Source: Deltaproteobacteria bacterium (GTDB taxonomy: Bacteria; Desulfobacterota; DSM-4660; Desulfatiglandales; Desulfatiglandaceae). Taken from it: a stretch of 5,763 bases of DNA. Of this stretch, positions 1-5,763 are shown in pieces (the stretch's first letter is position 1; each line of letters opens with the position of its first letter). Made by a program: the position numbers and the translations under genes. The notes beneath the pieces are model-generated. The model made no database searches. It was not told where the DNA came from and was given only the letters and a program-made list of their open reading frames with translations. The stretch spans positions 1-5,763 of the forward strand of contig JAFDJF010000194.1 in NCBI GenBank assembly GCA_019307645.1, read 5' to 3'.

Positions 1-347
1 GCACAGACGCCGCAGGCAATACATTTTTTTTTTTTTTTTTATCGCGGGCGCTGTAAGATATTGACTTCAAAATCGCCTTCCTCACCCGAGATATTTTCCA
101 CCTCTGATAAGGTAAGTAACTCAATGTTTAGGTGCCGGCCGACCTCGACCAGTTTGGGTGAAATGATTCACATGTCGCAGTCATTGGTGGGAAAAGTCTT
201 GTCCAGTTGGGACATGGCTCCGCCTATGGAGGGAGATCTTTCAACGAGATAAACGTAATAGCCTGAGTTTGCAAGATCGAGCGCCGCCTGCATGCCGGCG
301 ATTCCCCCACCGGCCACCAGCACTGAACCGACTCTTTTCTTTGACAT
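1..347 (-). CDS. hdrA: HdrA-like FAD/Fe-S subunit of heterodisulfide reductase, N-terminus, probable selenoprotein (partial)
   Basis: About 115 codons are visible; the gene runs off the left edge. The start at 347 is chosen over an upstream ATG at 371 because GGGGAG lies 7 bases before it and HdrA/QmoA-type homology begins there. Residues 9-20 are the FAD-binding strand-turn-helix ([12 protein letters not shown]), and E36 with the SPSIGG turn follows. Residues 52-72 match the family block FPTNDCxMC..SPKLVE.GRH, but the second cysteine codon is UGA (codon 60), giving a CxxU pair with C57. Reading continues in family-like sequence to codon 102. Codon 103 is UAA inside an A run; codons 109-115 then give CIACGVC, the first ferredoxin motif, in the same frame. 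HdrA is the flavin subunit of Hdr and can bifurcate electrons. It follows HdrB by 57 bases. Family call is firm. Whether the gene is intact depends on UGA recoding and on the A run being artefactual; a pseudogene is the alternative. Confidence 0.85.
24..40. repeat. 17-base T run (A run in the hdrA sense)
   Basis: Seventeen uninterrupted T on the plus strand. In the hdrA frame, with the preceding T, it makes exactly six codons (UAA plus five AAA) between QRPR and CIACGVC. Related HdrA proteins have about six residues there, of the type YxDxxK, so phase and spacing are preserved while the content is lost. This points to filled ambiguous bases or a homopolymer error near a contig end rather than a real insertion. 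Confidence 0.75.
135..152 (-). promoter_or_regulatory. Candidate bacterial SECIS hairpin
   Basis: Starting 16 bases after the UGA, CUGGUC (152-147) pairs with GGCCGG (140-135), giving six pairs including two G-U. The loop is GAGGUC (146-141). A short stem with a GGU-containing loop, about 20 bases 3' of the UGA, matches what SelB recognises; E. coli fdhF has an AGGUCU loop at a similar distance. The hairpin overlaps conserved coding sequence (LVEVGR), so part of the pairing could be coincidental. Confidence 0.6.
168..170 (-). other. In-frame UGA, probable selenocysteine codon (Sec60 of HdrA)
   Basis: The codon sits where HdrA proteins carry a conserved cysteine in NDCxMC..SPKLV. Sequence on both sides stays in frame and matches the family (NDCDM before, then [12 protein letters not shown]). 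Cys-to-Sec exchange in HdrA is known from methanogens and has been reported in deltaproteobacteria. A hairpin of bacterial SECIS type follows at 152-135. A simple nonsense mutation is the alternative. Confidence 0.8.
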
Positions 348-404: not shown

Positions 405-1286
405 CTACGTCTTTTCTTCAGCCAGAAACCCATAAAGGCTGTCGGCCTTCAATTGATTCATCTCCAATCCTAATAGACCCTTTTCAATGTCCATGCTCAG
501 TCCCAGAAGCTGGGAGTATAGAAGAGATGGGATGTGATGGTTAGTGCCCCGGGTCCTCGTAATCATCTTTTGAACCGTATCGAATTGCATCTGACAGTAT
601 GGACAGGCAGTGCACAGGTATGTGGCGCCGGACTGTTTCCCGTCCTTAAGCTTCTTTTCGGTCAAGTCCATGGAAAGGCTGTCATTTATTCCGAGTAAGG
701 GGGCCCCGCAACATTCCAGCTTTGACGACCAATCGATGCTCTTGGCCCCGGTTACCTCTACAAGACGATCAAAGATGCTTGGCGCGACCGGGTCATCGAA
801 CTGGACTATTTTGCTGGGTCTTAAGGCATGGCAACCATAATGTGTTGCAATTTTTAAATCCTTGAAAGACTTTTCTATCTTCTCTTTTATGGCATCAATA
901 CCCACATCATGATACAGTACCGATAGAAAATGCTTTATCTCAATCCCAGCTTCATATTTCAGTCCCTCTCCGGCGAGCGCCTCATTGATTTTGTCCCGCA
1001 GGGCAGAATCTTCCTTTAACAAATAATCGGTCTTTTTCAGGCTGCCAAAACAACACTTGCAAAGACTTATGATGTTAAGGCCCTCTTTTTCGGCCAGGGC
1101 CAGATTTCTGGCAGAAGAGAGGATAAAAGCATCATGATCAATGTTTCGAATCGGATATCCGCAACAGTTGAACTCTTTTATATCCTTCAGTCCTACATTG
1201 AGTTTTCCTAAAACCGCCCTTGCCGAAGATTCGTACTGGTTGAGACGGGCAGGAATGTTGCAGCCTAAGAATAGTGCAAATTTCAT
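405..1286 (-). CDS. hdrB: HdrB, heterodisulfide reductase subunit B (two CCG domains)
   Basis: 293 residues, the usual length of HdrB, soluble, with no signal peptide. Both cysteine-rich CCG motifs are complete. The first has C9, C41-C42-G, C76 and C79; the second has C152, C192-C193-G, C228 and C231. These correspond to the ten cysteines that bind the two non-cubane [4Fe-4S] clusters where methanogen HdrB reduces the CoM-CoB disulfide. Extra cysteines sit at C78 and C225. The start is fixed by a 4-base ATGA overlap with the stop of the preceding HdrC-like fusion, with AGGA about 9 bases upstream, so translation is probably coupled. HdrB needs HdrC and HdrA partners; both functions lie beside it, HdrC as a fused domain upstream and HdrA downstream. 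The organism is probably not a methanogen, so the substrate is not CoM-S-S-CoB by default and remains unknown. Confidence 0.92.
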   Translation of the reverse strand: MKFALFLGCNIPARLNQYESSARAVLGKLNVGLKDIKEFNCCGYPIRNIDHDAFILSSARNLALAEKEGLNIISLCKCCFGSLKKTDYLLKEDSALRDKINEALAGEGLKYEAGIEIKHFLSVLYHDVGIDAIKEKIEKSFKDLKIATHYGCHALRPSKIVQFDDPVAPSIFDRLVEVTGAKSIDWSSKLECCGAPLLGINDSLSMDLTEKKLKDGKQSGATYLCTACPYCQMQFDTVQKMITRTRGTNHHIPSLLYSQLLGLSMDIEKGLLGLEMNQLKADSLYGFLAEEKT

Positions 1287-3058
1287 ATGCTTTTTCCTAT
1301 TTGCTCTCGAGTCTGTTCTTGTGCGACTCGCACCGCTTCATTCTTAAGTTCGTAAAAAACATCAGTTATGCAAACTCCCTGTGGACATTGCTCCTGGCAT
1401 TGGTAACAGGTCAAACAGTCCCACAGCATGTTGGAACCTATGGCAAGGTCTTTCATTCCCAAAGCGCATGAATGCATTATCTGATGGGGCAAAAGGTCCA
1501 GGATCTCACCAGGGTTGTCGTAGTTTGCCACCACCGGGCATACAGTGGTACAAGTTTCACAGCCAAAGCAAACCGAGAATGTATTTGCCTGATCTGATAA
1601 ATTTAAGCTGCCCTTAAAACCTTTATCAGAATTTGCAATGGACAGGACCCCATCCGGCTTTTTCATCAAATCACCGCGGGCAACAACAGCCTCCCTGGCC
1701 CTGTTCAGGGGCATTAGATATTTCTCGGAATCCCCGTTTTCTTTTATGAATCCACGGTAGAATGAAAAAGGCGAGAGGGTGAGAAGTTCCGGAAAGCCAC
1801 GCCCAAGGAGAGATTCTCTTACATTAAACCACAAATCCTGGAGGTTGATACCCACCGGACAGACAACAGTGCAACGTTTACAGTTCGTACACAGATAGAC
1901 ACCTTCCTGGATCTCCTTAAGTGCCTGCTCGCTCAGTTCCTTACCGGCAGCAAGAGCCTTGATTGAGATAATCTTTTCAGAAGGAAGGATGTTGATGTTT
2001 GAAAAATGATCATAAAACGTTCCGGCAGAGCAGTTTAATGTACAGGTGCAGCAGTGGGTGCATGCATCCAGTTCCATAACTTGTCTGGTAGCTATGTTAG
2101 CCGGGTCTGATTTTCCTTTCTCCATTACAGAGTTGGTAAGCAGGCTCAATGGACCGGCAAAGATGTGGAACATCTTGCTGAAAGGAAGATAGGCAAGGCC
2201 TAACCAGCAGGCCAAGAAATGGATATACCAGAGCAAGGTAGGCACATTTGCCCGATCCAATGCCAGGGCAATCGGGCTGAAGATTTTGACAACGGCATAT
2301 CCTGTAAAGGCCCATTGAGGTCGCGAATGGCATTCGACACAGGACATCTCGTGGGTTTCCTGCCCCTGAGCCAAAACCTCTTGATCAAACGGGGCCTTAA
2401 CATTCGGTGAAACCACACCAAAATCTGAAACCCAGTAACTCTCTAGGGCCAGCATTTCATCTTCGCCATCAAGATCTCCGTATTCATCCACCATATCTGT
2501 AAACGCTGTATAGGACATGATCTTTGTGCCTTCCAGAAATATACCGGAAATCATAATGACGGCCATGATAATGATGGCGTAATGATCCATGGCATTGGTT
2601 GCCAGGCGTGGCACCTTTAAAATAAAACGCCTGCAGACGGCAATGGCTATCCCCAGGATGACCATCGCGCCGAACAGATCGCGTAAAAACAAAAACGGGT
2701 TGATGGACGAATAATACTCAGTAAATAGCGCAGAACTTACGAAGCTATCCAGGGCATGCATCAGAAGGAGCAGCATAAAACCGACATAAATACAGATGTG
2801 CATAAGCCATCTGAGAAAATCCTGACGCAATATCTTTAACTGTAAAATGACATCAAAAACAAAGACCTTCACCAGCGTAAGGATTTTCACGCTGAATAAG
2901 GTCCATACAATCCCCTTAATGGCCCCGGAAACTCGTGCTGAGGTCGAAACTCTTCCGGCTTCTATGCCGATGTCGTATCGAAACCAGGTTGAAAATTTAT
3001 AGACAAGGCCAACTACAAAGACTGCCAAGGCAATATACAATGAAATATAAAAAAACAT
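1283..3058 (-). CDS. NarI-like haem b membrane protein fused to two HdrC-type 4Fe-4S dicluster domains, with a haem c site
   Basis: 591 residues. Membrane spans are likely near 2-20, 84-104, 122-142, 159-176 and 272-293; 49-74 is hydrophobic but may lie at the interface. That gives a NarI-like five-helix plan with the C-terminus in the cytoplasm. Candidate haem b ligands are H87 and H101 in one helix, and H280 and H298 in the last; their 18-residue spacing equals that of His187 and His205 in E. coli NarI. The loop between the last two helices, predicted outside, holds CVECH (240-244), a haem c motif. The C-terminal half has four CxxCxxCxxxC sites starting at C333, C390, C497 and C548, the last two being HdrC-like. 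The start at 3058 has only a weak upstream GGAAACGAG. Likely role: passes electrons between HdrB/HdrA and quinone or an external cytochrome. Related families are DsrM, HmeC and TmcC; no exact named family is claimed. Confidence 0.85.
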   Translation of the reverse strand: MFFYISLYIALAVFVVGLVYKFSTWFRYDIGIEAGRVSTSARVSGAIKGIVWTLFSVKILTLVKVFVFDVILQLKILRQDFLRWLMHICIYVGFMLLLLMHALDSFVSSALFTEYYSSINPFLFLRDLFGAMVILGIAIAVCRRFILKVPRLATNAMDHYAIIIMAVIMISGIFLEGTKIMSYTAFTDMVDEYGDLDGEDEMLALESYWVSDFGVVSPNVKAPFDQEVLAQGQETHEMSCVECHSRPQWAFTGYAVVKIFSPIALALDRANVPTLLWYIHFLACWLGLAYLPFSKMFHIFAGPLSLLTNSVMEKGKSDPANIATRQVMELDACTHCCTCTLNCSAGTFYDHFSNINILPSEKIISIKALAAGKELSEQALKEIQEGVYLCTNCKRCTVVCPVGINLQDLWFNVRESLLGRGFPELLTLSPFSFYRGFIKENGDSEKYLMPLNRAREAVVARGDLMKKPDGVLSIANSDKGFKGSLNLSDQANTFSVCFGCETCTTVCPVVANYDNPGEILDLLPHQIMHSCALGMKDLAIGSNMLWDCLTCYQCQEQCPQGVCITDVFYELKNEAVRVAQEQTREQIGKSI

Positions 3059-3137: not shown

Positions 3138-5189
3138 TTAGTGCAGCGCCCCTTTCTTCGTGCGACGATAGCAGATGATTCCGCATTGCAGGCACCGTTT
3201 GGATTCCTTTGACGCCTGATCCTGAGAAAAACCCAGGGCGATCTCTTTTGCCGGGTCAAGGAGTTGTTGTTCCTGTGAAAGCTCGGGCATCTTCTCACGC
3301 GGCGCTTGGGGCACCGGCTCAAGACTATCCAGGCTGACCACGTGGGTAAATGTCCGGATCATATTAAACGGGGCCTCAACAGGTTCATCGTTCAGATATC
3401 TCTGGACAGAGCTTGCAGCCCTTCTGCCCGCCCCAATGGCCTCGATCACTGCCTTGTAATCACTGGTCACCTCACCGTCACGGAAAAGCCCCACATCATC
3501 GGTGGCAAACGGACCGGCATAGGGAACCACTGTCTGCCAGGTGTCCACTTTCTGCGGCGTTTGTGTTTCTTCTCCTTCGACCCGGGGAACATATATCAGC
3601 TCAGGGAACCGGCCCGCACCCGTCAGAAGGGTGTCAACGGAAATAACCTCTGCCTCCCCCAGACCTGAAGCCGCCATAACCTCAACCTGCATCAGGCGGT
3701 CTCCTTCACCGAGCATCTTCGAAAGTGCCGCCTCATAAATAATCCTGATCCCTTCACCTTCGGCAGCATCAAGGGCTTCGTCACTGACAGGCACAAGCGC
3801 TTTTGAACTGCGCAATACCACGCAAACCGCAGCGCCGGCTTCCTTTGCCGCCCCGGCCGCCTCGAGGGCCGCATGACCGCCTCCGATGATCATCACACTG
3901 TCGCCCACAGACGGGCTCTTTCCTTCCCTTATATCCAGAACATAATCCACCAGAAGCTGCACCCCGGGGATGGGCTGAGACACACCACCGGTTGCCCTTT
4001 CACTCATCCGGGTGTCCCATCCGCCCGTGGCAACAAATACCGCAGATGCACCTTGCCTGATCAATGAGCCAATGGTAAAATCCTTGCCCACTTGCTGCGC
4101 CTTCTTAACCGCAACACCGGCATCAATGATGCTGTCAATGTCCCAGTCAATTATCTCGCGCGGCAACCGGTTTTCCGGAAGCCCCGTACGCAGCAACCCT
4201 CCCAACCGGGACGTGGACTCATAGACCGTGGCATCGTGGCCCAGACGATTTAAAAAATAGGCCGCGGTCAGACCCTCTGCGCCACCCCCAACCACAGCAA
4301 TCTGCTTGCCCGTCTCAGGCGCCCGGGGCACTTGAACCCTCTGAGCGGAAGCCCGCTCATAATCCGTCGCAAACCGCTTCAGATCATTGATGGCAACCGA
4401 AGCATCCACCAGGTTCCTCCGACAGACATCCTCACACGGGTGCACACAAATCCGGCCGCATACCGACGGAAACGGATTCCTCAACTTGATGACCCGAACC
4501 GCTTCAAGATACCGGCCTTGTGCAATCTCATGGATATAACCCGAAATATCTATCCCTGCCGGACAGGCCCTCTGGCACGGGGTGGTACAGTCATAGGTGG
4601 TCTGCTCCCGCTGGATCTTCCGGGAATTGGACGAAAGCGTGATAATGTGCTTCGGACACACCCGCTCACAGGTACCACAGCCCGTACAAAGCGCTTCATC
4701 CACCACAGGCAGACTGTCATCCCCTATGGAAAGCGCCCCAAACGGACAGGCCTCAACACAGGTGCCCAAACCCAGACAACCCGCATAACAGACCTTGGTG
4801 CCACCATTCAACAACATGGCGGCACGGCAGTCATTAACACCATTATATATAAACTTTATGTCCGCCTCGGCTAAACCATAACTGCAGCCCGGAAGCGCAA
4901 TGTCAGGCTCCCTGGCCTCGATCTTTACCCCCATAATCTCGGCAATCTCTAAAGCAATCTCTTCTCCTCCGGCCACACAGGAAGACGCCGCTGCTTCCCC
5001 TCGGACAATGGCCTCGGCATTGGAACTGCACCCGGGTAGACCGCAGCCCCCACAGTTGGCCCCGGGAAGCGCATCTTCAACCGCCTCTATCTTCGGATCC
5101 ACATAGACATAAAATATCTTGGATGCCAGCGCCAGCCCTACACCGATAACTGTACCCAGTAACCCCATTATCAAAAATCCGCCTACCAT
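3138..5189 (-). CDS. rnfB: RnfB fused to a GltD/NfnB-like FAD and NAD(P)H oxidoreductase
   Basis: 683 residues. Residues 5-28 are one membrane anchor. C46, C49, C54 and C71 form the RnfB Fe-S motif (PGANCGGCGLPGC). C134, C138, C144, C148 and C168, C171, C174, C178 are the two ferredoxin sites. This RnfB part ends near 190, about the length of short stand-alone RnfB proteins (E. coli about 192). A GltD-type domain follows immediately: Fe-S cysteines C201, C205, C209 and C244, C248, C252, C256, an FAD motif at 299-307 (VVGGGAEGL), and an NAD(P)H motif at 434-443 (IIGGGHAALE). The protein ends with C666, C669 and C673 in RCLQCGIIC. RnfB takes electrons from ferredoxin at the membrane; GltD and NfnB oxidise or reduce NAD(P)H. 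The fusion should put an NAD(P)H site on the Rnf entry subunit (inference). The start has GGAGGA 6 bases upstream. rnfA lies upstream, as in standard rnf order, but 464 bases away. Confidence 0.88.
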   Translation of the reverse strand: MVGGFLIMGLLGTVIGVGLALASKIFYVYVDPKIEAVEDALPGANCGGCGLPGCSSNAEAIVRGEAAASSCVAGGEEIALEIAEIMGVKIEAREPDIALPGCSYGLAEADIKFIYNGVNDCRAAMLLNGGTKVCYAGCLGLGTCVEACPFGALSIGDDSLPVVDEALCTGCGTCERVCPKHIITLSSNSRKIQREQTTYDCTTPCQRACPAGIDISGYIHEIAQGRYLEAVRVIKLRNPFPSVCGRICVHPCEDVCRRNLVDASVAINDLKRFATDYERASAQRVQVPRAPETGKQIAVVGGGAEGLTAAYFLNRLGHDATVYESTSRLGGLLRTGLPENRLPREIIDWDIDSIIDAGVAVKKAQQVGKDFTIGSLIRQGASAVFVATGGWDTRMSERATGGVSQPIPGVQLLVDYVLDIREGKSPSVGDSVMIIGGGHAALEAAGAAKEAGAAVCVVLRSSKALVPVSDEALDAAEGEGIRIIYEAALSKMLGEGDRLMQVEVMAASGLGEAEVISVDTLLTGAGRFPELIYVPRVEGEETQTPQKVDTWQTVVPYAGPFATDDVGLFRDGEVTSDYKAVIEAIGAGRRAASSVQRYLNDEPVEAPFNMIRTFTHVVSLDSLEPVPQAPREKMPELSQEQQLLDPAKEIALGFSQDQASKESKRCLQCGIICYRRTKKGALH

Positions 5190-5653: not shown

Positions 5654-5763
5654 CTACACCATTCCCTTAAATGCAAAAAAGGCAAGGGACAACATCCCGG
5701 CAGACACCAGACCAATGGAGGTGTCCTGCAGCGGTTTGGGAACATTGCACAGTAAAATCCGCT
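5654..5763 (-). CDS. rnfA: RnfA-like membrane subunit, C-terminal fragment (partial)
   Basis: The reading frame from 5761 to the TAG at 5656-5654 gives 35 residues. It holds VPKPLQ, then SIGLVSAGMLSLAFF and AFKGMV. This resembles the C-terminus of RnfA: a VP.P...G..I.LI.AGL..LAF.GF.G pattern, the last membrane helix and a short tail. RnfA is an integral subunit of the ion-pumping ferredoxin:NAD+ oxidoreductase and normally comes directly before rnfB, which agrees with the next gene. The alternative is RnfE, a paralogue with similar helices. The call rests on a short stretch and on gene order. The gene continues beyond the right edge. Confidence 0.7.
   Translation of the reverse strand, partial: RILLCNVPKPLQDTSIGLVSAGMLSLAFFAFKGMV

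Follow-up and report, generated by a model that had tools for sequence, protein, structure and literature searches.

A probable selenocysteine codon and SECIS hairpin in hdrA of a Desulfobacterota bacterium

Described selenocysteine-containing HdrA and the genes of the window

Selenocysteine (Sec) in HdrA has been known since 2006 (PMC1794560) and is described for Deltaproteobacteria also in later papers (PMC2702500, PMC5109826). The HdrA genes of Syntrophobacter fumaroxidans, Syntrophus aciditrophicus, Desulfobacterium autotrophicum HRM2 and Desulfococcus multivorans contain a Sec-coding UGA, as does the hdrA gene analyzed here (PMC1794560, PMC2702500, PMC5109826). In D. multivorans, the UGA lies upstream of a SECIS and the gene is filed under two tags, dmul_C02770/80 (PMC5109826). 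In methanogen HdrA, Sec occurs in a CxxU motif, again as in the present gene (PMC13188914, PMC1794560). The occurrence of HdrA selenoproteins in methanogens and in deltaproteobacteria, stated in the preliminary description of this DNA, is thus in print for both groups (PMC1794560, PMC2702500, PMC5109826, PMC13188914).

The window, i.e., the whole stretch of DNA analyzed (5763 bases), is very probably a whole contig, as the database entry for its own 67-aa ORF comes from a contig of just this length. It holds the 5′ end of hdrA of a Desulfobacterota bacterium, and all its genes are on the minus strand, in the order rnfB, hdrC-like, hdrB and hdrA (Table 1). Compared by description, the neighbors differ from those of the deltaproteobacterial genes above: here hdrB, an HdrC-like gene and a large rnfB, there frhD/frhG/frhA, mvhD or glpC (PMC1794560, PMC2702500, PMC5109826). 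The large RnfB resembles that of the D. toluolica Tol2-type Rnf, an RnfB of about 700 amino acids with an NAD-binding part; in the window, however, the large RnfB is followed by hdrC-hdrB-hdrA (PMC5109826).

Table 1. Features of the window (5763 bases), with positions on the forward strand
Feature	Position	Strand	Basis
HdrA motif K-C-I-A-C-G-V-C, in the same frame after the T run	3..26	-	Translation; sites of ten relatives compared
Run of 17 T, read as A on the coding strand	24..40	.	In relatives, ordinary codons of equal total length; the run creates an in-frame TAA (41-39)
hdrA 5′ part, residues 1-102, read through the UGA	42..347	-	Translation; the window ends before the remainder
Predicted SECIS hairpin, 7-bp stem, AGGU loop	135..152	-	16-33 nt past the UGA; best fold and conservation
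In-frame UGA, codon 60, putative Sec of the C57-D-M-U60 motif	168..170	-	Translation and homologue sites
Codon 57, the other Cys of CxxU	177..179	-	Translation; C57 invariant in the full-length alignment
hdrB-like gene, CCG domain, directly upstream of hdrA	405..1286	-	PF02754; TIGR03288 with E 2.3e-74, below its cut-off
591-aa protein, HdrC-like 4Fe-4S domains, one CxxCH motif	1283..3058	-	Pfam/NCBIfam profile matches
683-aa large RnfB fused to a GltD-like NAD(P)/FAD oxidoreductase	3138..5189	-	Profile matches
3′ end of an upstream gene	5654..5761	-	Translation

Translation of hdrA starts at position 347 and meets the TGA after 59 codons. The NCBIfam family HdrA2 (NF040770) matches residues 8-58 (E 2.8e-21) with 75.3 bits, far below the cut-off of 1100, which applies to a model of 777 positions, since the query is a fragment of only 59 amino acids. 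The 591-aa HdrC-like protein is probably membrane-bound, to judge from its sequence, and its single CxxCH motif (MSCVECH) is a possible c-type haem site. The RnfB-GltD fusion precedes hdrC-hdrB-hdrA; none of the 46 loci that surround the related hdrC gene, some with short flanks, is listed with a match to it of at least 40% identity. The tail of the upstream gene may be RnfA-like, and its 35 amino acids have no Pfam match. Rfam and ARAGORN found nothing in the window, and a plasmid search gave no match.

The in-frame UGA, its hairpin and the decoding genes of relatives

Beyond the TGA, 42 more codons can be read and they are plainly HdrA sequence, so that the family sequence does resume after the UGA, as had been noticed from the letters of the window. 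Codon 60 is TGA in 42 and TGC or TGT in 17 of 59 distinct HdrA sites, and there is no site with any other codon (0/59). These sites comprise a PTNDCxM-type motif with any residue or stop next to it, in all loci and the window, paralogues included (64 sites minus five duplicates); 46 of the loci come from a contig scan with the 591-aa gene and 30 HdrA loci from a protein search of 85 genomes of the class, which gave an HdrA match in 84. In a full-length alignment of 14 sequences, with TGA entered as C in seven of them, residue 60 is an invariant C. The alignment of homologues proposed as a check thus bears out that the UGA stands in the place of a conserved HdrA cysteine, U or C being present in 59/59 sites. 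By hand count, 129 of the best 150 HdrA matches listed have one internal TGA and 21 have none, in a list biased toward UGA genes, since the query is itself a UGA gene; one of the 129 also has a TAG. Within the motif CDMU (168-179), a D before the M occurs only in the window's own entry among the best 120 database matches, the others having A, S or T.

The 42 codons that follow the UGA are conserved and under purifying selection. Between the window and each of six relatives, dN is 0.03-0.21 and dS 0.97-2.06 after the UGA (6/6 pairs), and dN is far below dS before the UGA as well (in the five of six pairs that could be computed). Among the 42 UGA sites, only the window (after 43 codons) and L046 (after 81) have a second stop within 300 codons of the UGA, and some loci end sooner.

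The archaeal SECIS is of another type and in another place than the bacterial one. The hairpin of the window lies shortly after the UGA and has G in its apical loop, two features that we take to mark a bacterial SECIS. It had been described as a six-pair stem with a GGU-containing loop, 16-33 bases past the UGA; this is essentially right, except that in the best fold an AGGU loop is closed by seven pairs. Folding of the RNA thus recovers the hairpin, but the z-scores of four overlapping stretches (-0.57, -0.69, -1.11 and -1.95) are too weak to decide. When the codons of the peptide are resampled, 643 of 20,000 versions (3%) form a hairpin of equal stability. By itself, the hairpin of the window is suggestive only and not rare.

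The comparison across relatives is decisive, at the level of sequence, for a hairpin that is more than chance. Its 18 nucleotides (+18 to +35 from the T of TGA) are letter-identical in 37 of the 42 UGA genes, against 1 of the 17 Cys genes. Of the five UGA genes without the exact hairpin, L004:4900 departs from it by one change and L033:4579 by three, and the others belong to a paralogue. That UGA-HdrA paralogue (three genes: L004 10037, L010 10223, L036 16128) has a hairpin of its own, which starts four or five bases further on, at +22/+23, and has GGUC in its loop. As the hairpin barely varies across the UGA set, conservation at synonymous sites was taken in place of covariation. In the 39 main-type UGA genes, the normalized synonymous entropy of the hairpin codons is 0.029, less than in any other of the 131 windows of six codons, for which the median is 0.803. 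For these six codons, the 17 Cys genes give an entropy of 0.653, rank 8 of 95 (median 0.769). Because the silent conservation is confined to UGA genes, selection on the protein alone does not explain it.

Genes for Sec decoding are present in most relatives. With 29 loci submitted, 28 relatives' genomes were examined for selA, selB and tRNA-Sec. A selA over the cut-off occurs in 27 of the 28 and a selB in 23. A tRNA-Sec scores over the gathering score in 24; the two such matches in G015 are tRNA-Trp and tRNA-Ser according to ARAGORN, so that a canonical tRNA-Sec (69.9 bits or more) is counted in 23 genomes and not 24. In the 13 genomes behind the UGA-HdrA loci, selA is found in 13, selB over the cut-off in 10 (selB is in two pieces in G002) and canonical tRNA-Sec in 11; in the 15 other genomes, the counts are 14, 13 and 12. 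With such similar counts in both groups, no loss of Sec decoding is apparent where the site has Cys. In assemblies that are partly fragmented, and with tRNA candidates partly scored, canonical tRNA-Sec was not seen in 5/28 genomes and selB over the cut-off not in 5/28. The row most identical to the window (88%) is the HdrA of G094, a genome with a selB, in which no tRNA-Sec match was seen at E 1e-8.

Four observations thus lead to the Sec reading: TGA in 42/59 sites, a hairpin frozen in UGA but not in Cys genes, purifying selection past the UGA, and sel genes in most relatives. On these grounds the Sec-containing HdrA with SECIS of the preliminary description is upheld. No other explanation of the UGA comes close to that of a Sec codon with a bacterial SECIS, and with high confidence we take hdrA of the window as a predicted selenoprotein gene, in which UGA60 would be read as Sec via the hairpin. 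As the ribosome meets UGA60, SelB with Sec-tRNA(Sec) would bind the hairpin 16-33 nt downstream, as the anatomy of the site and the relatives suggest, and selenocysteine would be inserted at codon 60 in place of termination. The early stop at the UGA of hdrA is thus probably not a defect. The identification as Sec-HdrA is right and well supported, and the gene is an ordinary member of its family.

Cysteine-coding homologues and other readings of the UGA

On a quick tree of the 59 rows (with SH-aLRT support only, and the window row 21% filled), the Sec/Cys trait needs at least 7 changes, a count that gives no direction. Three Cys genes keep the hairpin wholly or nearly so. L032 and L071 are Cys genes in a set of 33 rows (support 95) in which the other 31 rows have UGA, and L014 pairs with the UGA gene L087 (support 92). 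The hairpin has no mismatch in L014 (12993), one in L032 (9624) and two in L071 (1671); the rows of L014 and L071 are poorly filled, and each of the three genes comes from one assembly. From these sequences, the three are likely Sec-to-Cys changes with a remnant SECIS. For L014, where TGC stands with an exact hairpin, insertion of Sec at the UGC codon was considered and rejected: no tRNA-Sec with a GCA anticodon was found in its genome, G015, and a remnant hairpin is therefore simpler.

In the 2006 table, remnants are given for FdhA and a HesB-like protein, and no Sec-to-Cys event for HdrA (PMC1794560). A 2026 review describes Sec-to-Cys changes as rare and mainly limited to FdhA and SelD (PMC13188914). 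The Cys genes that keep the SECIS hairpin suggest a Sec-to-Cys change in HdrA, against none in that 2006 table (PMC1794560). No report of SECIS remnants in HdrA was found in the open-access literature searched.

The hairpin could also serve the insertion of cysteine: the UGA would be read as Cys, wholly or under selenium shortage, by a selC*-type tRNA-Cys(UCA) with SelB*, a second elongation factor. Such selC* tRNA-Cys/SelB* pairs of Syntrophobacterales and Desulfobacterales are reviewed in PMC7609411. Among the relatives, a second selB adjoins a tRNA-Sec-like gene in 3/28 genomes (G001, G003 and G011), and by tree path only one row is closer to the window than G011. The three divergent tRNAs have U at the discriminator position, against G in the three canonical ones compared, and their anticodons are UCA (G001), GCA (G003) and UCA (G011). 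The second tRNA-Sec-like genes are located, beside the second selB, at L047 3390-3481 (UCA), L048 2960-3051 (GCA) and L049 1078-1169 (UCA). On the other hand, the nearest row by tree path (G086) has one canonical tRNA-Sec and one selB, with no second pair at the limits used, and among the matches listed for the 13 genomes behind UGA-HdrA loci, the other 10 show no pair of this kind (one 77-base match in G006 being left aside). Further, a canonical tRNA-Sec is present in all three selC* genomes as well, the selB* frame in G001 spans just 390 of the 581 positions of the profile, and nothing ties SelB* to the hdrA hairpin. We regard cysteine insertion at this UGA as unlikely.

A broader proposal combines the two kinds of decoding. 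The hdrA UGA of the clade might be ambiguous, giving Sec via SelB and Cys via SelB*/selC* when selenium is short, with one frozen 18-nt hairpin; lineages would then repeatedly fix Cys in the DNA, the hairpin lingering on as in L014, L032 and L071. This we consider quite improbable.

If both the UGA and a second stop were real disabling stops, hdrA of the window would be a pseudogene. The second stop is an in-frame TAA at 41-39, 43 codons past the UGA, near the end of the window and at the edge of the homopolymer. The preliminary description does not mention this TAA, which touches on a condition named there as refuting the Sec reading, the accumulation of other disabling changes in the rest of hdrA. 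The homopolymer, however, is exactly as long as the codons of the family that it stands for, the frame resumes with KCIACGVC, and its distance from the end of the sequence, very probably a complete contig, is 24-40 nt; from these sequence features, the TAA and its homopolymer are probably an assembly or base-call artefact. Moreover, the UGA is at the Sec codon of the family, with an intact hairpin, and dN is far below dS on both sides of it. A pseudogene is thus very improbable. Slippage on the A run as a way of bypassing the TAA was rejected, since a ribosome would meet the TAA ahead of the run, and the run leaves the reading frame unchanged. Lastly, a sequencing error in a Cys codon has next to no probability in spite of the 17/59 sites with Cys (TGC/TGT), as the hairpin is the one of the UGA genes, the five nearest tree rows are all UGA, and the next seven best database matches (98-95% identical) end at the same codon.

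Residue 60, two-half HdrA and truncated database entries

Residue 60 can be placed in solved HdrA chains. In the relative L036, residue 60 aligns gap-free with chain residue 197 of 5odc_A (counted by hand). Cys197 of one HdrA copy is described as a ligand of the N-terminal FeS cluster of its partner copy, in a structure that is ascribed to M. wolfeii and is tied to 5odc by the agreeing residue number only (PMC9012536).

The L036 HdrA has 1010 amino acids, of which residues 8-378 match 5odc_A from residue 145 on and residues 453-607 match the N-terminal part of the chain. Two HdrA halves are fused in it: the Sec lies in the first, which lacks the N-terminal cluster domain, and this domain is present in the second, where the Cys is missing. 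When the halves are aligned with each other, no Cys of the second half falls at the position of the Sec. In contrast to this two-half form, each of the solved archaeal HdrA chains is a single unit of about 650 amino acids. In fused HdrAs, Cys197 and the N-terminal domain are divided between the two halves (PMC9012536). L036 thus resembles the HdrA forms of ANME archaea and Moorella, fused or in tandem, with residue 197 and the N-terminal cluster domain in separate halves (PMC9012536). It differs from the ANME fusions described in that its halves come in the opposite order and that it has Sec at this residue (PMC9012536).

By analogy with L036, the HdrA of the window would have a second half too, and its Sec would be a cluster ligand. 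Sec60 would take the place of the HdrA cysteine aligned with residue 197 of the solved HdrA, and would probably ligate the FeS cluster of the partner half, in the ferredoxin branch of an electron-bifurcating Hdr complex. As a predicted cross-subunit FeS ligand, residue 60 makes the placement of selenium at an iron-sulfur cluster open to test.

The main consequence concerns annotation: TGA-HdrA is common in the class and truncated fragments are abundant in protein databases. The shortening of Sec genes in gene prediction is in print for archaea (PMC12054007). In the window, too, a miscalled short ORF had been anticipated, and the best 120 short database matches, the window's own included, all end just before the UGA codon. 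Of these matches to the 59-aa ORF, 119 end in C-x-M/I and one in C-S-L; the search, made with a fragment, admits only proteins of about 33-103 amino acids, and shows that fragments abound but not what share they form. Because gene finders tend to stop at the UGA and fragments abound, Hdr complexes with a HdrA of the Sec kind are easily missed.
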